Source of the DNA: Stygiolobus caldivivus
GTDB taxonomy: Archaea > Thermoproteota > Thermoprotei_A > Sulfolobales > Sulfolobaceae
Reading direction: 5' to 3'
Assembly (NCBI RefSeq): GCF_019704315.1
Contig: NZ_AP024597.1
Location: forward strand, 2,764,501-2,828,500
DNA length: 64,000 bases
The notes beneath the pieces were generated by a model. That model ran no database searches, was not told where the DNA came from, and saw only the letters and a list, made by a program, of their open reading frames with translations. Below are positions 18,147 through 30,131 of the stretch, one piece after another. The position numbers were made by a program, and so were the translations under genes. Position 1 is the stretch's first letter. The number at the start of each line of letters is the position of its first letter.

Positions 18147-18446
18147 ATGAAAAAAGCATCCTTATTTTCGGGCTATACACTCTCAAACAATTTAGTCAGG
18201 TTAAGCATGTACGAAGTAATGCCGTGTATCGTGAAGACCGTAACTAACCAAGTGATCACTTACGACGCCTTACGCGGGCTCTCAAAAAAGATACGTGAGA
18301 AAGAAGAGGAACTAGTAAAGGAAGGTATAGATAAGGGGTTTATAAACGACCTTGCTGAAGACGCAGAGAACGCAGACGGGGCTATATGTGGGAGTGAAGA
18401 AAGGATGAGAGCTTATATAGAGATCCTCTACGCGCTTGAACCTTGA
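18147..18446 (+). CDS. small hypothetical protein
   Basis: 99 residues, unrecognised. It has a neutral N-terminal third and a charged helical middle (residues ~50-80, many Lys/Glu). A TATA-like ATTTAATTTA lies about 30 bases before the ATG, and codon choice resembles the neighbours. Its end overlaps the 3' end of the convergent nuclease-helicase remnant by 19 bases. A second Met at residue 22 (MYEVMPC) could be the true start. A partner role for the adjacent defence-like gene is only a guess. Confidence 0.5.
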   Translation: MKKASLFSGYTLSNNLVRLSMYEVMPCIVKTVTNQVITYDALRGLSKKIREKEEELVKEGIDKGFINDLAEDAENADGAICGSEERMRAYIEILYALEP

Positions 18447-18667
18447 CTGATCAGCTTTTCCACAGCCTCCTCAGTACTTTTATCCTCAAAGAATACATAA
18501 ACTCCCTTAGTCCCCCTTGTCAACATTACGTAATACCTGTTCCTAAGCAAAGCCAATACTTTTTCCCTGCACTTTTTGTCCTTACACTTCTTGGCGATCT
18601 TCATCAACGAGTTCCTCCCTATGTAGTCGGTTATGGGGTCGGGGTCAAAAGTCCACCCCCCCCCCAT
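18428..18667 (-). pseudogene. C-terminal part of nuclease-helicase, out of frame
   Basis: This frame encodes the end of the DUF2075-type helicase: WTFDPDP, a Cys-containing basic stretch and RYYVMLTRGTKGVYVFFED, which is helicase motif VI and the usual C-terminus. It is in a different frame from the preceding 506 codons. The two overlap exactly at a run of ten G (C10 at 18656-18665). Removing one G would join them into one protein of about 577 residues. Confidence 0.75.
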
Positions 18668-20165
18668 CTCTCCATACGAAGTCTCTACCCCACACTACCC
18701 CTACATACTCCGCATCAAACCCTTGTGCACCGTACACGGAGGAGCAGTACTTCAGTGGGTCTAACTTTCCCGTCCAATACCTCGGGTACTCTGTCTTAGG
18801 GTCCATAAGCCATGTCACCCTCACGTCTTTACTCTTGTATAAGTCGAGGCCCGAAGGCAAGGGATAGCCTATCCTTAATCCCCTATCCGATTCCGTAAAC
18901 GCACACACTAAGGCTACCCTCCTCCCCTCCTCCTTCTTTTTCCCGAGCTCCCTCAGCATGTCCTCTATATCGGAAAATACCCTGAACTCGAAATCAGGGA
19001 GGTGAGAGGGCCTACCCTCTAATATACTCCTTACGAACTCTACGTAGTCCTTAGGTGCCCTTAATACAGTATATAAGTCGTATTCTTCTACGTCCTTCAG
19101 GTGTTTTAAGAAGTTCTCCCTAGTCCCGGCCTCATTATCTAAGAGCACTTGTTGGTCGTCGTAAAAATATACGTTTACCCGCCCCTTAGGAGATCTCCTT
19201 ATTACGTCTTCCCTCATCCTCTGGGCCTCATCAAAGACTATCAGGTCGATCTGCCTCTCCCCGAACTGTCCCCTGAACCAGTCCTCAAAGCCCTCTTCGC
19301 CTATACCGGGGTACCCCTTTATCCCCGTAGAGTAGAACCGTATGAAAGTACTGACCTCGTGGCCCAAAGCCTGCCTTACGACGTTTAACAGCCTGTTATT
19401 GACATATGAGAGGAAAGAGAAGTACCCCCTGCTGAGCCCCTCCAGAAAAATTGTCACTGCGAGCAGGCTCTTCCCCGACCCGCTGTTACCCCTGATCAGG
19501 AAGTTCTTCCTTTCACCTCTTTCAAGTGCGTCCATAACCCTTTTGAGTATAATCGCCTGCTTTTCGGAGAGCCCGTAACCGTAGGGTAAAAGTGCCTTAG
19601 CTAAGTCCTCTTGCTTTCTCTCCTTTATCGTTTCTACGAAGTCGACAAAAGTCTTATTTAACCTGAGTTTACCTTTCACTATAGTGTCAGGGTCTCCCGG
19701 TGCCATGGACTTTAGTTCGTCCTTGAGCTCGTCTATCTCCCTGATCGTCTTACACTCAGAGGAGTAGTCGCTGGTATTGTAGAGGAAGAGTAAACCGTAA
19801 AACTTTACCCCTGAGGAGTGGAAGAAGTTCAGTTTGGTAACGTAATCGGTGAGTTGGTAACACGGGTCCAGGTGGAGTTGCCCGTCTGCCTCCACTATGT
19901 CCATGTCCACCTTCTTTACTCTCCTCCAACCTTTAGCTTCGACCACCAAGGCCCTATCCTTACCCGTAAAGATTATATCAGCCCTACCGTCTGAAATAGG
20001 GTACTCCCAGACCGAGGGGAACTCTATACCGTCAAGCAGACTTACAAGCTTCTTCCACGCGTTCTTCTGTTCTACCGACGGTTCTTCTCCGTATGTGTCT
20101 ATATATTCCTCCACCAGTTCTGAGTAAACCGTGTCGTCTACTTTGCGCACTACTAGGGGGAGCAC
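18645..20165 (-). CDS. PD-(D/E)XK nuclease fused to superfamily 1 helicase (DUF2075 type), frameshifted near 3' end
   Basis: 506 residues before the frame breaks. The N-terminus has D63 in GRADIIFTG and E77-x-K79 in VVEAKGW, a PD-(D/E)XK nuclease core. From residue ~200 a helicase follows: GNSGSGKS (226-233), VFDEAQRM (~311), FYDDQQ (~342) and SVYGAQGFDAEYVGVVWG near the end. The protein terminates as WRDGGGVDF, just where homologous proteins continue to motif VI; that part is encoded in the next frame (18428-18667). Nuclease-helicase fusions of this kind are common in defence islands. As read, the protein lacks motif VI and should be inactive unless the G10 tract varies. Confidence 0.8.
   Translation of the reverse strand: MLPLVVRKVDDTVYSELVEEYIDTYGEEPSVEQKNAWKKLVSLLDGIEFPSVWEYPISDGRADIIFTGKDRALVVEAKGWRRVKKVDMDIVEADGQLHLDPCYQLTDYVTKLNFFHSSGVKFYGLLFLYNTSDYSSECKTIREIDELKDELKSMAPGDPDTIVKGKLRLNKTFVDFVETIKERKQEDLAKALLPYGYGLSEKQAIILKRVMDALERGERKNFLIRGNSGSGKSLLAVTIFLEGLSRGYFSFLSYVNNRLLNVVRQALGHEVSTFIRFYSTGIKGYPGIGEEGFEDWFRGQFGERQIDLIVFDEAQRMREDVIRRSPKGRVNVYFYDDQQVLLDNEAGTRENFLKHLKDVEEYDLYTVLRAPKDYVEFVRSILEGRPSHLPDFEFRVFSDIEDMLRELGKKKEEGRRVALVCAFTESDRGLRIGYPLPSGLDLYKSKDVRVTWLMDPKTEYPRYWTGKLDPLKYCSSVYGAQGFDAEYVGVVWGRDFVWRDGGGVDF
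18656..18665. repeat. C10/G10 homopolymer at a frameshift
   Basis: Ten consecutive C on the plus strand (G on the coding strand) sit exactly where the helicase reading frame changes. Such tracts are slippage-prone in replication and also a common place for sequencing errors. Confidence 0.85.
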
Positions 20166-20890: not shown

Positions 20891-23800
20891 GTGGCATCAG
20901 AAATTGTTCCAGAGGCATACACTTCAATATTAGGTGATATAATTCTCCAGGAATGTTCTAAAATAACAAAAGAGAAATGTAAATATAACGATACTCCAAT
21001 AAAGCTGAAACCTGATCCTAGTGAGTATAAATACGGATTGAAAAGAGAAGAAATAATAGATATAATCTCGAAATATTTCCCTGGAAAAGAAGAGGAAATA
21101 TTACAAAAAATGCTTAAAAATAGTTATATCCTAGAATTTTCTGATGAGAATGATAATAAACAATATCGTAGTATTTATATGGACTTGTTCATCAGAAGTG
21201 TTAATCTTAAGACAAAAAATTTCACTCCTAATTATATAATTAACCCAAGATTGAGTTTAGTAAAAGTTACTATACCCTCTAATGAAGATAGAAAATATAG
21301 ATTAGATATGAATAGTAATGTAAAGGAAATCAGAGAATTAGTTGATTTACTTGTACAAGAATTAGGTGACAAAGATGCTGAACAATATGTCAAAATTGTT
21401 AATGAGTACTTGGAGTTAAGAAAATATAATGGTCTCGATCTTATTCAGATTTCTATGATAAGAGATGCTATTAGAGACTTTATTAATGGAAACCATATAC
21501 TCATAGAAGCTCCGACGGGTTTTGGAAAAACTGAAATTTTCTTATTTTTAATATTATTCGTTCTAATTAAATATAAATTTAATAGTAATAATAAAATTTT
21601 AATTTTGTATCCAAGAAAAGCGTTAGCATTGGATAATATGAACAGAATTATAATGTTATCGGCATTGATTGAAAAAATAAAGGGAGTGAAGGTTCCCGTA
21701 CTGCTCAGAGACGGTGACTCAGATAAATTAGAAGAAGGTAGCAAAGTGAGAGGTGGCTCTTTAACTTGCCCTAATAAACATCCTTTAATTTTTAAGAATA
21801 ATAGAGTAACTTGTTCTGATGAGAAGTGTGAATACAGAGAAATGGTTCACATATTAGACACTAAAAAATATAAAAACTACAATGCGGAGCCTTTAATTAT
21901 CATATCTAATATATATACTATAGCAAATAGACTTTTAACCTTTCGCAAAACGGAGGATATAAACATAGAGGATTTTAAGAAAATTTCTCTAATCATATTG
22001 GATGAAGTGCATGTTTATACAGATATTTTTGGCGGTATTACCTCCTCTGTACTGGGAGGAATTAAAGAGATAAACAATAATGTCAAGTTTATAGGAGTTT
22101 CCGCTACAATTCCTAATAGGGATAGTTTTGCTAAACAGTTATTCAACGATAATAGAATATCATTTATAAACAGCCTAGAGATAGCTAACAAGATTAGTGA
22201 AAAACTTAGAGGTCAGAAATTCTATCTTGTCGGGTTCTTCGAAATAAGACCGGATATTTCATGGCATACTTACGCTCAATTATGGACTATTCTTGCCTCC
22301 ACCTATTCTATCATTTATCTGAATAATCCTATAATCGCTAAAGGCGGTTTTACACAATCAGATCCTAAAAATAATACTCCTGATAACTATTTCTCATATC
22401 AAAACATAGTTTTCATAAATAATGTGTACGAGTTAAGGAGGTTCAGAGAAGAGATAATGCAAAACATCAGTATAGGAGAGCCGAAAGACAGAGTAAAAGG
22501 GGATATTAAGGAAGCTTTTCGAGATCCTTATTACGTGTATCTCCCTCCAGAACTAAATAACCTCAATAAGGCATCATTAGATAACAATAGAATTCATTGG
22601 ATAGGAGAGATCATCAGAAAACACTTTGGAATAGTGTTTATGGATGCTAAGGATAAGTTTGAAAGGTTTACAAAAATAGCTAAAGGAGAATATATAGCTA
22701 TAGCGTCTACGTCATCACTTGAGTTAGGGGTTGATTATGAAGGGGTTTCATTTATATTAAATGCAAGTGCAGATGATGAGGTTGAAATCGTCCAACGATT
22801 GGGAAGGGCTGGAAGAAGTAGTAAGATGCCAAAGATAACCTTAGGGATAATATTATCTAAAAATGTACCTCATCAGAGTTTCAGGATTCATGATGAAAAT
22901 TACTCAAAGAGAATCATATACATGCTATCGGGTACTCAACTCGGGGATATTGATAAAAATAAAATCGGATTAAGAATAATGAAAAATGCTAAGCCGGTGA
23001 TAGAGTTTAAAAATCTGGTCATTGCCTCTATTAATCTGTATAAAAAAGGTATAATTTCTGATATTAACGTTGATTTGCAAAGTATATTTTCGGAAATGGA
23101 AAATTTTGTTGAAGATGGTATTATAAAGTCTGAGTTGAACGAGTTCAAGGAAGTTTTCTTTACAAAGAGACTAAATTGCGAAAAAATTATGAATAGATAT
23201 GCTAAGTTTACTAAGATTAAAAGCACAGAAAAAGATCTTCCATTTTACATAGATAAATTGGAAGAAAAAACAGAAAAATTCTGCGACAAGATAAGTAAAG
23301 ATAAAGTACTTTCTAAGAGTATTACTCAAGAAAATAATGAGAATATTAAAAATATATGTGCTAAATTAAACAGTAATTTAGAGAAAGGGATAAAACTGGC
23401 TGATAATTTCAATAAGTCGTCTGATGTCACAGCGAGAAGGGATAATCTAAATGAACTTAAGAAAAAACTAAGGGAAATACGTTCAAATTTTGAAGAACTA
23501 GATGACCTATTAGGTAGTCAAGGAATAAAACATTTAATTAACTACCAGGATGAGATACGGAAAAAATTAAACAGAAATGTTCAAAATATAATAAATATAG
23601 TTCTAGATTTAGAAAAGTTTGTGGATAAACAACCTTTAGAAAATGAAAAATATTTTATAATATGCAAGAAGATAAATTCTATTCCAAATAAAAAATTAAG
23701 AAATCCCAATATCATTAGAGAATTTATATTTAACTATTCATCTATATCTAGCGTTGGACTTGGCGTGGAAGATCCTAATTTGACTAGACAGAATATAAAA

Positions 23801-25924
23801 GTGTCTATTAATGACCCATTAATTAATTCCTCACGTCCAATTTCTTGGCATCAGGATTTTTACACAATATTAACTCGCTTTTATCCTTTTACGATAGTCA
23901 ACTATTCAGACTATCTTGAAAGCAAGCAAACTAGATCGTCTATCAGTAATATGCCATACGGAACTCTTTTACTAGGGTTGAATTTAAACTACAACGAGTG
24001 GGACCATAATATACGGAGGAATATAGGACGATATCTAAGTATAGATATTCAAGGTAGAAAGAAAGTACTAGAATTAAAGGATATTAGGGAGATAAAAATA
24101 TACAATTTGTTAGATCTTGAAAATAGATTAGGGAACCCTATTGTGTTAAAATCTAAAAAAGGCTACGAATTTTATGTAAAATTAGGAGTTGATGTAAGCT
24201 ATATTGATTACTATTTACGTAATCCAGATCAAGTAAGACAGCTGGCCAATAATAAGGGGTTAAGATACGACCCGTTCATCTTATCATATAGTAGAGTATG
24301 TGATATTGGACATGGTATATCAACGGATCCATTTGATATAAACTGCCCGTTCCAAGGAGAATGCAGCCTTGGAAAAATTTTTCTTCCTCATAGTTGCAGA
24401 CATTGGATATCTTACTCAATGTCATCAATGAAGCGTCCGATACTTCCGTTTATTGATAAATTAAACGATAATAAGATAAGAGGTTCGGTTTTAGTGTCTC
24501 CAATAAATGAAGTCTTTGAAGTTACTTCTTTGTTAGTGTTCAAGAAATTAGATAAGGTCTTAATATCTATAAGTGACTATACATTACCTATCTATTTGAA
24601 TCCTAAAATAAGAATAACCTTATATGATACTAACGGGTTGAAAGTACGGTTTAACAAACTTATAACAAAAGAAATTTTAAAGAAAATGTTATTTGATGAA
24701 GAATCTAAAGAATTTGAAGAACTTCGATACATATTACTGACCAAATACTATATAATTAAAAAGTTCAGGGGGAACGTATATGTGGGGGTAAGGAACTTGG
24801 TTTCCAAAAAATATAAGGAATACATAGAACAAATATACTCAAATAACGGAGAAAGAGAAGAGTTTCTAGAATTTGTATATACAATATTACTTCATACTTT
24901 AGCTCATTTATTATATGAGTTTATCATCTCCAAATTCAACGTCGATGAAGACTTCATAGATTATTATTACAATCTAGATATGAATAATATTTTTAATAAG
25001 GATGATGATTCAATATATATATACGAGAAGACTTCTTATGGTACGTTGAAATTAAGTGAAATTATAGTAAGAGGTTTTAAAAATATGACTAATTTATTGG
25101 ACGAATTTTATGAGTACGCACTAGATGAGTTAAAGAGGCATGAACAAGACTTAGATAGTTATGGTAAAAGCTTAAAGAACTTAAAGGCTCAAATAATGAG
25201 TGGAATCAATAAAAATTACTATAAAATACTTCAAGATGAAGTAGAGATATATAGGAATTTGTCTAATAACAAAATTAGACCAGATTTATACACATTCAAG
25301 CTTTATCTTACAGAGAAATTTAACAAAGATAAAGTTAACGAGGAGATTAATGACTATTTAAGTTTAGCTGATGTGGTATTGGAAAATATATGTATTGATG
25401 GTTGCTCTTCATGTGTTATAACCGATTATTGTCATTATCCTCTACATCAGAATCTGGTAGTGAGTAGGAGATTAGCTTATTATTTTATTAAGGAGATATT
25501 CGATGAAAAGTCAAAAAGAATCAAGAGTACTATAGAATTAAAAGGAAATTCTGATCTTGGGTTTCAAATAATAACCCATTTCGCTAAAGAAAACGCAAAA
25601 TTAATAAAGATAACTAGCGCCTTTATCGATAAGGAATGTCTCGATATTATAAAGTCAGTTCTAAATACAAACCGCAATATATTAGTAGAATTAACTACCA
25701 ATAATTTAAATAATAGTAAAGTACTACAAGAATATTCTTCTCTTATAGAAAGTCTTAAGACTACGGGACGTTTTAAACTGAACTTCGATCCAAAGACTCA
25801 TGTTAAGGAATACGAGGTATTATTCGATTCTAATTATAGAATAACTATAACAACAAGTTGGAATTGTGAAAAATCTTCGAGTAAGCAGAACTTCAGTATC
25901 AGTGTATCTTATATGAACACATGA
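20891..25924 (+). CDS. giant DISARM-like helicase: DEAH-type helicase + DUF1998-like half + phospholipase D-like tail
   Basis: 1677 residues from GTG. Helicase core: APTGFGKT (207-214), a Cys-rich insert (C293, C308, C313), DEVH (371-374), VSAT (403-406) and QRLGRAGR (635-642). A long charged helical region spans ~740-930. The second half has CDIGHG...CPFQGEC...C (from ~1136), LLHTLAHLL (~1333) and a cysteine cluster CIDGCSSCV...C (~1498-1513), which resemble the DUF1998/MZB region of DrmB and MrfA-type proteins. The last ~120 residues follow a phospholipase D-like pattern ending in THVKEYEVLFD...TTSWN. In DISARM, DrmA (helicase), DrmB (DUF1998) and DrmC (PLD) are separate proteins; this looks like all three in one chain. 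The gene is far more AT-rich than the flanks, a sign of transfer. Confidence 0.8.
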   Translation: MASEIVPEAYTSILGDIILQECSKITKEKCKYNDTPIKLKPDPSEYKYGLKREEIIDIISKYFPGKEEEILQKMLKNSYILEFSDENDNKQYRSIYMDLFIRSVNLKTKNFTPNYIINPRLSLVKVTIPSNEDRKYRLDMNSNVKEIRELVDLLVQELGDKDAEQYVKIVNEYLELRKYNGLDLIQISMIRDAIRDFINGNHILIEAPTGFGKTEIFLFLILFVLIKYKFNSNNKILILYPRKALALDNMNRIIMLSALIEKIKGVKVPVLLRDGDSDKLEEGSKVRGGSLTCPNKHPLIFKNNRVTCSDEKCEYREMVHILDTKKYKNYNAEPLIIISNIYTIANRLLTFRKTEDINIEDFKKISLIILDEVHVYTDIFGGITSSVLGGIKEINNNVKFIGVSATIPNRDSFAKQLFNDNRISFINSLEIANKISEKLRGQKFYLVGFFEIRPDISWHTYAQLWTILASTYSIIYLNNPIIAKGGFTQSDPKNNTPDNYFSYQNIVFINNVYELRRFREEIMQNISIGEPKDRVKGDIKEAFRDPYYVYLPPELNNLNKASLDNNRIHWIGEIIRKHFGIVFMDAKDKFERFTKIAKGEYIAIASTSSLELGVDYEGVSFILNASADDEVEIVQRLGRAGRSSKMPKITLGIILSKNVPHQSFRIHDENYSKRIIYMLSGTQLGDIDKNKIGLRIMKNAKPVIEFKNLVIASINLYKKGIISDINVDLQSIFSEMENFVEDGIIKSELNEFKEVFFTKRLNCEKIMNRYAKFTKIKSTEKDLPFYIDKLEEKTEKFCDKISKDKVLSKSITQENNENIKNICAKLNSNLEKGIKLADNFNKSSDVTARRDNLNELKKKLREIRSNFEELDDLLGSQGIKHLINYQDEIRKKLNRNVQNIINIVLDLEKFVDKQPLENEKYFIICKKINSIPNKKLRNPNIIREFIFNYSSISSVGLGVEDPNLTRQNIKVSINDPLINSSRPISWHQDFYTILTRFYPFTIVNYSDYLESKQTRSSISNMPYGTLLLGLNLNYNEWDHNIRRNIGRYLSIDIQGRKKVLELKDIREIKIYNLLDLENRLGNPIVLKSKKGYEFYVKLGVDVSYIDYYLRNPDQVRQLANNKGLRYDPFILSYSRVCDIGHGISTDPFDINCPFQGECSLGKIFLPHSCRHWISYSMSSMKRPILPFIDKLNDNKIRGSVLVSPINEVFEVTSLLVFKKLDKVLISISDYTLPIYLNPKIRITLYDTNGLKVRFNKLITKEILKKMLFDEESKEFEELRYILLTKYYIIKKFRGNVYVGVRNLVSKKYKEYIEQIYSNNGEREEFLEFVYTILLHTLAHLLYEFIISKFNVDEDFIDYYYNLDMNNIFNKDDDSIYIYEKTSYGTLKLSEIIVRGFKNMTNLLDEFYEYALDELKRHEQDLDSYGKSLKNLKAQIMSGINKNYYKILQDEVEIYRNLSNNKIRPDLYTFKLYLTEKFNKDKVNEEINDYLSLADVVLENICIDGCSSCVITDYCHYPLHQNLVVSRRLAYYFIKEIFDEKSKRIKSTIELKGNSDLGFQIITHFAKENAKLIKITSAFIDKECLDIIKSVLNTNRNILVELTTNNLNNSKVLQEYSSLIESLKTTGRFKLNFDPKTHVKEYEVLFDSNYRITITTSWNCEKSSSKQNFSISVSYMNT

Positions 25925-26133
25925 TGGAGCGATATCTAATACAGAATTTTTTGTAAATTAAGGGAAAGAGTTAGTCTTATAAAACCATATAAGTTATAGA
26001 AGCAAAGACAATATCGTATGTTTTTTCAATTTCGACATGTGTCCCTTTGCGATTCACCGATCAAGAGTATTCGTATTAAACCCAAGTAAAACAGTAAACC
26101 AGGTTTCAAAAACTTAGGCTGCTTACGTCTCCA

Positions 26134-26480
26134 TTGCAAATTGAAATACTCTCTATTGAATTAGTACAATTCTATGTATAAATAATCAAACCATATTAAA
26201 TATTCTATTTAATCAAAGTCATAAACCTCTATTATCCGTTCTACTAGGACCTTTTACGTTTCTTTTACGGCTTCTATTTGTCTAAATAGAGTGAGATTGT
26301 AACTATTTAAATTTACACTAAGCAATATTAATATGATAGTGTATATATAAAAAAGCGTATATAAGAAGGTTATAATCCGGATTACCCAGAATGATTACAC
26401 ATGTATTGTATAATTCATTCGTTGCTCGAATTATTCCAATTCGAGGAAAATTACAATTTGTAAAAGAGCCGTGAAAGGCC
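26134..26480 (+). repeat. AT-rich repeat D (copy 1)
   Basis: The first ~80 bases (AATTGAAATACTCTCTATTG and the following AATTAGTACAATTC) match 37472-37549 directly. The segment 26279-26334 matches 37587-37641 as its reverse complement. GAGCCGTGAAAGGCCCCT near 26466 matches GAGCCGTGGAACACCCCT near 37659. The parts therefore recur but with one block inverted. Confidence 0.5.
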
Positions 26481-26614
26481 CCTAATAGTTTTTTAATAAT
26501 AATTTTACAATAATATATAATTAACAGTTAAAATACCATTTCGATAAGACAAATTGAAATTATAATGGATCTATGAATAACCTTACATCATTAACCTCTA
26601 AAGATGATCGAGTA

Positions 26615-26725
26615 TATAATCGGTCAGTCCATATAGGGCAAGAGTACTTTCATGTAAAGCGTATAATATTTATCTATCGGAAGAGAAAGAGGCCTTATCA
26701 CATAATGTTCAATTAAGTATATAAT
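26615..26725 (+). repeat. palindromic unit A (copy 4)
   Basis: ATAATCGGTCAGTCCATATA followed by GGGCAAGAG and CTTTCATGTAAAGCGTATAA is close to the reverse complement of 31171-31220. The right arm is shortened (CATAATGTTCAATTAAGTATATA). Confidence 0.55.
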
Positions 26726-27032
26726 ATAATTTCTCTTTTCTCTTTAATCCTTATTTTAGCACTTCCACATGTTTATTCAGAACTTATACTAAATCAGGGA
26801 CTAAGGATAAGCCTCATTCTCTTATTTAGCAAATTTTTAGTATCGTACTAACGGCCGTGTTATTCTTCATCCGCTGACCGGGTATAGTAGTATAAGGTAA
26901 AATTCATGTCGATCAAGATTAGGTCCGTGATTATGTAGAGCAGATCTTTACTAATGAGTAACTGTAAAGTCTTGGGTTTTTATTGTGATCGTAAAGGATT
27001 TAAATGTGTTAAAGAAAATTATTTAACGTATT

Positions 27033-28394
27033 ATGAGCGAGGATGACCAAGTTTTTTACTCAATTATATCAACGACCTTATCTGAGCATGACTTGAAAGA
27101 AATAATGGAACTTCATATTCTCAAATCTATTAATATTGATAATGATGGGAAGAATGAAAATATAAATAAAATAAAGGATTGTTTAAAGGAAAGATATAAG
27201 GCTTCAGATGTAAAAGTAGTCGTTATTCCTGATAATCAAAAAAATAATAAGAAACTTAGAATAGACTTTGAATATAGCTTAGTTAACTATTGTAGTACTT
27301 TAAGTAATATTCAAAATCTTCTAAATAAATTATCAAGTTTAGACAAAGGTCGTAAGCACAAGGTTAGTGTTTGTATACGCGTGAAATTAAACGATAGAAT
27401 AAAAGAGGAGCTTGAGAAAAAATTACATAGAATTAAGAAATTACAATGGTTTATAAAAACCAAGTATAATACTCTTGATTGTTACATTAATAGAATAGTT
27501 TTACTTCCTGAAATACCTAGTATATCTATACTTAGGACTCTTTACAAAGCTGATAGCAAAAACTTAGATATAGATGCAAACCCGATCACTATAGGAAATG
27601 TTGAATTGGCTAAAACTGACTCAGATATTTATAAATTTAATAATTTCATCATATATAAAATAAGCCAAGACACATCAACCCAGAAATTCCTTGAAAAAAA
27701 TTATAAAATAGATAGTATGGAGCGAATTTTGTTGTACACTCTATTCGGTATTCTTTCAGATAATAGGGTATTACTTCCTTGGCCTTTTTCATCTTTTCAA
27801 TTAGCTGATGACAGTGATACAATATATACATTATTCATAGGAAAATTTAAGGTGAATAAAATTGTAAACAATGATAAGCAACAAGAGGAAGAAAACGATG
27901 AAATTTTGCAAGTAAACAATCCTAAAACCTTTTCGAGAATTAATCTTACTCTGGAGGGAATGCCTCTAGATCATAATTTAGTTGGGAAATCGTTTAGGAT
28001 TGTATGCAAAGCTCTATCGTCAAAACAGATAAAAGAGGAAGTTGAAAAAATAGGATTGTTCTTAGGTAAAGCGTTCAACAAACTGGAAACTCAGAAGTTA
28101 TATTTGTTGAAAGTTTTTGATGATACATTAATATCAGAAATTAGAGAAATAAGAAAAAAAATCCTTGATGACCCAAGACTATTTGAAGCCTTAAGAAATA
28201 TCTTTCATGAAAATAATACAATTATGATAAAGGATTTTATCGTAGAGCAAGTATATCAAAACAACGATTTATTTAAACTTGCAGGCATAAATGATATCAT
28301 AAAATTTCATACTAAAATTCTAATATTTTATAAGGATATATATAAAAAATTATTTAGGGATTCATACGAACCTAGTAGTATAATAAATGTATAA
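27033..28394 (+). CDS. orphan protein of the AT-rich defence block
   Basis: 453 residues, not recognised. No P-loop, nuclease or zinc motif is visible. It is Lys/Ile/Asn-rich with an acidic patch (QQEEENDE, residues ~285-292). Residues ~130-150 are basic helix. A central hydrophobic segment reads RVLLPWPFSSFQLADDSD. The C-terminal third is helical. Base composition is as AT-rich as that of the giant helicase and methyltransferase, so it probably arrived with them. It is convergent with the methyltransferase. A structural, DNA-binding or effector role in a restriction-type system is possible, without direct support. Confidence 0.75.
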   Translation: MSEDDQVFYSIISTTLSEHDLKEIMELHILKSINIDNDGKNENINKIKDCLKERYKASDVKVVVIPDNQKNNKKLRIDFEYSLVNYCSTLSNIQNLLNKLSSLDKGRKHKVSVCIRVKLNDRIKEELEKKLHRIKKLQWFIKTKYNTLDCYINRIVLLPEIPSISILRTLYKADSKNLDIDANPITIGNVELAKTDSDIYKFNNFIIYKISQDTSTQKFLEKNYKIDSMERILLYTLFGILSDNRVLLPWPFSSFQLADDSDTIYTLFIGKFKVNKIVNNDKQQEEENDEILQVNNPKTFSRINLTLEGMPLDHNLVGKSFRIVCKALSSKQIKEEVEKIGLFLGKAFNKLETQKLYLLKVFDDTLISEIREIRKKILDDPRLFEALRNIFHENNTIMIKDFIVEQVYQNNDLFKLAGINDIIKFHTKILIFYKDIYKKLFRDSYEPSSIINV

Positions 28395-28571
28395 TTTTCT
28401 AAATAAACTAATTGGAAAAGTATATACTTAAAATTCTACTTTACGATTTAGCGTTAGGCACTAGAGGGCGAAGATCTTATTCTTTCACCTTGTATTTATA
28501 GCTACTTTACGCTGTGACTTAATTACTCTTCACATACTAACTGAGTTTGATGACGGTATTTCTTATTAGTA

Positions 28572-30131
28572 TTATATCGGCCTTAAAATAAATATGATAT
28601 TCGTTCTATGCTGTGATCTACCCAAATAACCTGGTGACTCACCTAGAATTTCATATTTATTGACTATTTCTAGTCCGACTTTCTCAATAACTTCATACAA
28701 ATTCTTCCATTCAGACTTCATATTGATTATAAGAACTATTCTTCCATCAGACTTTAATGATTCCTTGCTCTTCTTTAATATCGTTAATAGATTGTCGAAG
28801 TATCTTTCCTTTCCAATCTCCTTATTTAAAGCACTTTTTAAGGATATTCTTTCAAATAAATTTATTATTACTATATGCGGAAAACTTAATGAAGAATAGC
28901 TAGGTGAGAGTTTATAGTAAGGAGGATCAATAACTATTAAATCGCTTTTAGGATACTCCTTGACTAAGGCATCTCCCAGCATTCCGTGAATTTCTCCCCT
29001 TAATTTATACTTTCTTATACGCATCTGATTTCTTATACCGGAAATAACTGTGCTTCTAGCATGAACAGCAAGAGGGTTTGTCTCAACAGTGTATTCCGGA
29101 ACCCAATACCCTTTTATTCCACCTGCATACGGAACGGGTTCATTTAAAGGAGGATACCAACGACAAAGAAGGGAGCATGTCTTCACAGAGTCACTAGCAG
29201 CTAACATTAGTAATAGTCTCTCTACTTGGCTTAGTTCCTTTGCCCTCTCAGCTAATCTATGAAAGGTAAGGAGTTGAGCTTTAGTAAAAATTTTTTCAGG
29301 TCTGGTTATATTTGCTTTAATGAGTCTATTTCCTTCCCTTAATTCTTCTATATAAATGTCAATATCGACCTCTAGTTCAACTTCTTTAAGTAGTCTGTTT
29401 CTATTTTCCAACCAATTTTTGTCAAATAATAATGTCTTATCTACTACAATTCCGAACGCTTTCCAACCGAAATAATCCACCACGTTCTTAGGCTTGTATA
29501 GAGGCTTTATAGTAACTTCAACTAAATTCCCGCAATGAGGGCAAGGGATTACCTTCTCCTCATTACTTTCACTCTCGAAAAAGTTTCCGCAATGAGGGCA
29601 AAGGATTACCTTCCTGAAAGGGTTCTTTTTCGTCATAACCCATGAGGGAACCTTATCTCTCGTAATTAATACATAAGATACCGTACTCCCTTTGTAGGAC
29701 CAAATAGGAGAAAGTTCTTTCTTAGCTTCTTCAATTATAGAGTTAATATGATTAAAATTCACATCATTTCGCAGTGCAGAATATCCCTCAATTATCTTAA
29801 CTGCAAGAGGATTAATATCGATACCGTAAGCATTATAGTTATACAGTGATGCTTCAACCAAACCGGTTCCTCCGCCTGCTAAAGGTTCAAAATAAGTTAG
29901 GCCGTGGGCATCTAAGATTTCCGGATTAATTAACGCCTCGTAAAATTTCTCGTCATTTTCAAGTAAAAAGGATGCCAGAATACTTCGGTATAAATATATA
30001 TATCTCTTAGACCACCATCTATGCAAACTTACTTCCCTTTTTATTCCGCCTTTCTCCTTTTCAAGTATCAATTTTTCTACGACAGGTATATAGTTTTTGA
30101 GATCATCAAGTAAACGTAACAATTTTAACAC
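28572..30131 (-). CDS. DNA methyltransferase with zinc ribbons (DUF1156-like adenine-specific type)
   Basis: 519 residues. N-terminal SLHRWWSKRYIYLYRSILASFLL is the DUF1156-type opening. FEPLAGGGTGL (81-91) is the S-adenosylmethionine motif, followed by GIDINPLAVK. Two CPHCG pairs at about residues 177 and 198 form zinc ribbons. The catalytic DPPYY is near residue 402, typical of amino-group (N6-adenine or N4-cytosine) methylases. It is shorter than many DUF1156 proteins but appears complete. Such enzymes protect host DNA in restriction-like systems; the adjacent AT-rich helicase and orphan gene are the obvious partners. Convergent with the orphan gene, so separately transcribed. Confidence 0.83.
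   Translation of the reverse strand: MLKLLRLLDDLKNYIPVVEKLILEKEKGGIKREVSLHRWWSKRYIYLYRSILASFLLENDEKFYEALINPEILDAHGLTYFEPLAGGGTGLVEASLYNYNAYGIDINPLAVKIIEGYSALRNDVNFNHINSIIEEAKKELSPIWSYKGSTVSYVLITRDKVPSWVMTKKNPFRKVILCPHCGNFFESESNEEKVIPCPHCGNLVEVTIKPLYKPKNVVDYFGWKAFGIVVDKTLLFDKNWLENRNRLLKEVELEVDIDIYIEELREGNRLIKANITRPEKIFTKAQLLTFHRLAERAKELSQVERLLLMLAASDSVKTCSLLCRWYPPLNEPVPYAGGIKGYWVPEYTVETNPLAVHARSTVISGIRNQMRIRKYKLRGEIHGMLGDALVKEYPKSDLIVIDPPYYKLSPSYSSLSFPHIVIINLFERISLKSALNKEIGKERYFDNLLTILKKSKESLKSDGRIVLIINMKSEWKNLYEVIEKVGLEIVNKYEILGESPGYLGRSQHRTNIIFILRPI

Follow-up and report, generated by a model that had tools for sequence, protein, structure and literature searches.

A G10 tract divides an accessory nuclease-helicase gene of Stygiolobus caldivivus, in a genome rich in long G tracts

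The divided nuclease-helicase gene

The window, by which the whole stretch of 64,000 nt analysed here is meant, comes from a thermoacidophilic archaeon and carries on its minus strand a nuclease-helicase gene that is spread over two reading frames (Table 1). The upstream frame begins with GTG, and its end reads WRDGGGVDF-TGA, with the stop codon at 18647-18645. One base on, the downstream frame reads GGGWTFDPDPITDYIG...NRYYVMLTRGTKGVYVFFED...SSA-TAG (stop codon TAG at 18430-18428), and its continuation past the 506-codon frame is GGGWTFDPDPITDYIGRNSLMKIAKKCKDKKCREKVLALLRNRYYVMLTRGTKGVYVFFEDKSTEEAVEKLISQGSSA-TAG; the remaining two frames each contain 7 stops across this region. The frame changes at a run of ten Gs, written as C10 on the plus strand, which is located at the 3' end of the gene. 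No other G/C run in the window exceeds 7 bases; runs of 5, 6 and 7 bases number 65, 16 and 1 there, and by this steep fall-off a G10 would be rare by chance. The tract exceeds the chance expectation, yet it is not peculiar to the nuclease-helicase gene.

Table 1. Features of the nuclease-helicase locus (window coordinates)
Feature	Position	Strand	Remark
Upstream frame, 506 codons: NERD-like nuclease and most of the Schlafen group 3 SF1 helicase	18645..20165	-	
NERD-like nuclease core (residues 52-127; conserved D63, E76, K78)	19785..20012	-	
Upstream-frame part of the helicase (residues 220-500; Walker A GNSGSGKS, DEAQR)	18666..19508	-	
G10 tract, frame-change site	18656..18665	-	read from sequence
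Downstream frame, conserved C-terminus	18428..18694	-	51-67% identity to homologues
Helicase motif VI region NRYYVMLTRG, severed by the frameshift	18512..18541	-	

An earlier note on this DNA had proposed that the missing motif VI and C-terminus follow in the next frame, and re-reading the frames and aligning the homologues confirmed it. The note had also let the two frames overlap exactly at the tract. They overlap by about 17 codons (18694-18645), and the switch point is placed inside the G10 tract because of homology to relatives, not because of the frame overlap. At this site the eight full-length Sulfolobaceae homologues that were aligned read WGRDxxWR(x1-3)WTVNPDPITD or similar, without a long G run. 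The C-terminus with motif VI is in the frame that nine Gs would yield, and the further claim that one G fewer restores the full-length frame also held, as the G9 frame runs on into the conserved C-terminus. Lengths in the phase of G9 or G12 would keep the frame of the gene, while G10 loses it before motif VI. A repeat tract in a coding frame is one mark of contingency loci, and the G10 tract does lie in the coding frame and alter it. At a length of ten Gs, an ATG immediately 5' of the tract (18667) shares the frame of the C-terminal part, and the last 79 residues could therefore be a separate peptide.

The product of the upstream frame matches PF09848 (Schlafen group 3 helicase) with 159.9 bits against a curated cut-off of 24. 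It covers profile positions 2-298 of 354, the remainder being encoded in the next frame, so that no single frame of the G10 copy holds a complete PF09848 domain including motif VI; intact homologues score 196-239 bits. The match of the N-terminus to a NERD-like nuclease is weak; D63, E76 and K78 in it are invariant across the family. The stretch that is cut off comprises 78 residues, 51-67% identical to those of the eight full-length homologues. A sequence search against solved structures gave no useful match. The AlphaFold model of the intact homologue L073 has a mean pLDDT of 90, and a fold search with it matched the SF1 helicases DSH9, RecD2, SLFN11, Dda and UvrD. In this model the lost stretch holds the final strands and helices, as well as three invariant residues in the region of motif VI: N566, Y568 and R574, as numbered in L073. 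Judged by what is established for SF1 helicases, the short G10 product would be unable to complete its ATPase site and hence would be inactive.

No further break was seen in the gene, and GC3 is 0.62 both downstream and upstream of the tract. An otherwise intact and conserved gene is also what an assembly or base-calling error would leave, with a real tract of G9 (or G12) and the gene intact and ON. One-base errors are usual in long homopolymers, but the genome is a single contig of 2,958,410 bp with 99.99% completeness and hence not riddled with indels, and a tract of about ten Gs would be real either way, since the relatives have none. Such an error is a distinct but minor prospect. The conserved downstream frame would likewise suit a rescue, in which transcriptional slippage at G10 or ribosomal frameshifting yields some full-length protein. 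Programmed -1 frameshifting has been demonstrated for the alpha-fucosidase of S. solfataricus (PMC8211752), and rescue by homopolymer slippage has been reported in Buchnera (PMC2831843). Here, however, the required shift is +1 (or -2), whereas -1 is usual at slippery heptamers, and no homologue has such a site; we hold rescue to be very unlikely.

The gene is accessory. Matches occur in 9 of 40 relatives, in one case just as a fragment, and the congener is without one. The gene has no G/C run longer than 7 in any of 43 distinct homologues, which come from Sulfolobales, Thermoplasmata and further groups, and in IMG/VR no viral homologues were found. PADLOC gave partial matches of the G10 gene product to AbiO and Nhi (about 48 bits), by which the gene resembles defence genes. 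Adjoining it is an AT-rich island (20891-30131), possibly a defence island, which encodes a 1677-aa DEAD-type helicase with partial DpdJ/SngC/Cas3 helicase matches, a 453-aa protein of no evident family, and a protein resembling N6/N4 DNA methylases.

Long G tracts across the genome

Genome-wide, 45 G/C runs of at least 8 were counted, with 4, 3, 4, 11, 13, 5 and 5 runs at lengths 8 to 14. Of these, 38 are tracts of at least ten Gs in 2.96 Mb, with a mode of 12. The distribution is bimodal, with few runs at 7-10 and then 34 at 11-14. In the sampled DNA the counts drop steeply to 5 at length 7 and climb again at 11-12, and A/T runs there have no second length peak. With its 34 runs of at least eleven Gs, the genome ranks first among 300 genomes drawn from the phylum. 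The runner-up has 15 tracts, and its family includes several genomes at 9-15; this family is probably Pyrobaculum and relatives. Runs of this length are lacking in the congener and in most other genomes of the phylum. Unstable G/C tracts in Pyrobaculum aerophilum were reportedly described by Fitz-Gibbon et al. in 2002 (PNAS 99:984). A class of that type would be marked by a second peak of long G runs and by the absence of MutS, both of which were found here: MutS_V is absent from the genome, while 11 of 14 control genomes were positive. The genome carries a lineage-specific class of long, probably unstable G tracts.

Hyperthermophilic archaea lack MutSL (PMC4471258), and because MutS is absent the tract in the nuclease-helicase gene could well vary in length. 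Loss of EndoMS/NucS was considered as the cause of the tracts and rejected, as NucS is present and open in the genome. Across 31 Sulfolobaceae genomes, 13 of the 16 with NucS/EndoMS (PF01939) are without any tract of at least ten Gs, and 13 of the 15 without it have some (Fisher p 2e-4, kinship ignored). The great exception to this trend is the genome of the window, with NucS present and 38 tracts.

The tracts shun genes. Outside open reading frames lie 36 of the 38, although the coding share of the DNA is 70-77% (binomial p <1e-15 at a coding fraction of 0.70). Only two are within open reading frames, namely the G10 of the nuclease-helicase gene and a second at the final codons of a 576-aa frame (L065). 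Nowhere else in the genome do two long frames join out of phase at a tract; the idea that the tracts are concealed frameshifts in other genes was therefore dropped. No archaeal promoter boxes were found at a constant distance from the tracts. When the intergenic site of one tract was compared with the congener, the alignment was confined to coding DNA.

The base in front of a tract follows a strict rule. All 41 tracts of at least nine Gs are preceded by C or T and none by A, against 47% of G5-6 runs with a preceding A (Fisher p 3e-11); tracts of at least ten compared with intergenic G4-6 runs gave p 3e-10. Two bases before the run, at position -2, a purine stands in 34 of the 38 tracts of at least ten (p 6e-5), so that these 34, of 10-14 Gs, come after purine-pyrimidine, and most tracts are followed by A. 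A preceding A was found in 8 of 40 tracts of other Sulfolobaceae and in 10 of 41 of the family f20, where the rule is thus looser. One G12 tract is part of a CRISPR spacer that measures 36 nt, against 38-44 nt for the other spacers of the array; twelve Gs were therefore not merely inserted into a full-length spacer. The array (L052, genome 1025700-1031900) has about 50 repeats of GTTAATCCTTAATGGAATTGAAAG and this one spacer with G12, for which no match to a viral source was found, and two further G12 tracts lie within 1.2 kb of it.

Plain slippage leaves the absence of tracts after A unexplained. One speculation could account for the boundary rule: an A beside the run would be turned into G, and growth would end once a pyrimidine is reached. 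In view of the bases that flank the tracts and of the tract in the spacer, a sequence-dependent process other than plain slippage might make the tracts and may switch genes like the nuclease-helicase gene, which would be the equivalent, in an archaeon, of poly-G phase variation; we give this proposal little weight.

Origin and likely effect of the G10 tract

The explanation that we favor, as probable though far from certain, is that the slippage-prone class of G tracts, in a genome without MutS, hit an accessory nuclease-helicase gene incidentally, and that the gene stands at OFF in the assembled genome, plausibly reversibly. In the absence of MutS, replication slippage would give rise to the long G tracts (10-14 bp, with a mode of 12) and probably alter their length; the acidocaldarius mutation spectrum is counted as support for this account (PMC4471258). 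One such tract would have grown in the accessory gene at a place where relatives have 1-3 ordinary codons between WR and WT. With ten Gs the frame would be lost ahead of motif VI, leaving the ATPase site incomplete and the gene OFF in the assembly, and a tract in the phase of G9 or G12 could in principle bring it back into frame. With MutS missing, the tract length may vary in living cells, and we infer that the hit was incidental rather than selected. The intact downstream frame would also be expected under a selected switch and counts against the incidental account.

Under selected phase variation, the tract would be retained and slippage between OFF and ON would trade self-damage against virus defence. 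The earlier note had pointed to a possible ON/OFF switch in a defence gene, and part of that survives: the gene is defence-like and its frameshift does lie in the tract. A tract in the coding frame of such a gene, which is otherwise intact with a conserved downstream frame, in a genome without MutS, would fit a selected ON/OFF switch. However, contingency tracts would be kept in homologues or enriched in a functional class of genes, and here the homologues are tract-free, the tract class shuns genes and the out-of-phase junction is unique in the genome; because of this gene avoidance and these tract-free homologues, the gene family and the tract class are without the marks of selected contingency loci. 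The position at the 3' end also differs from that of the selected-looking poly-A/T tracts. In prokaryotic genomes poly-C/G tracts are generally under-represented and poly-A/T tracts occur near the 5' ends of genes (PMC2831843), whereas the present tract is poly-G and close to the 3' end. The G10 tract is not a conserved contingency locus, and selected switching of this gene is accordingly unlikely.

The recurrence of its tracts makes a subfamily of ParA/MinD-like ATPases a stronger candidate for selected switching than the nuclease-helicase gene. Four species carry G8-G13 tracts in it, at the C-terminal end or close by (G10 in G022, G13 in G042, G8 in G010 and G11 in G043); the loci (L150, L151, L152, L154 and L157) are of the same genus as the Metallosphaera loci. 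In G022 a mid-gene G10 also breaks a tandem paralogue into 186 aa and then 73 aa in a different frame.

If the tract in the nuclease-helicase gene varies, it would be a concrete archaeal case of homopolymer-driven ON/OFF variation in a defence-like gene. Even if it is invariant, the genome is an outlier in its long G tracts, which never follow an A, and offers a natural system for asking by what means MutS-less archaea generate long homopolymers, live with them and get rid of them.

Comparison with known systems

The tract class resembles that of Pyrobaculum aerophilum, in that a crenarchaeon without MutS carries many G tracts of 11-14. It differs in that the host belongs to the Sulfolobaceae, has the most tracts of 300 genomes and sets them strictly after a pyrimidine, and their instability here is putative. 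As in the poly-G contingency loci of Helicobacter and Campylobacter, the length of a coding tract of about ten Gs determines the frame; in those bacteria, however, many surface genes bear tracts and switching has been observed, whereas here the tracts avoid genes and switching is putative.

Like fucA1 of S. solfataricus (PMC8211752), the nuclease-helicase gene is an archaeal gene split at a homopolymer that is uninterrupted in relatives. In fucA1, though, the site is A-rich and recoding is -1, while here a G10 would need a +1 shift at a site that no homologue shares. In its architecture, a PF09848 SF1 helicase with an N-terminal nuclease-like domain, the product is similar to Schlafen group 3/NERD-helicase proteins, AbiO and Nhi. 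Unlike these, the present copy is frameshifted; its matches to AbiO and Nhi are partial, and its role in defence is putative.
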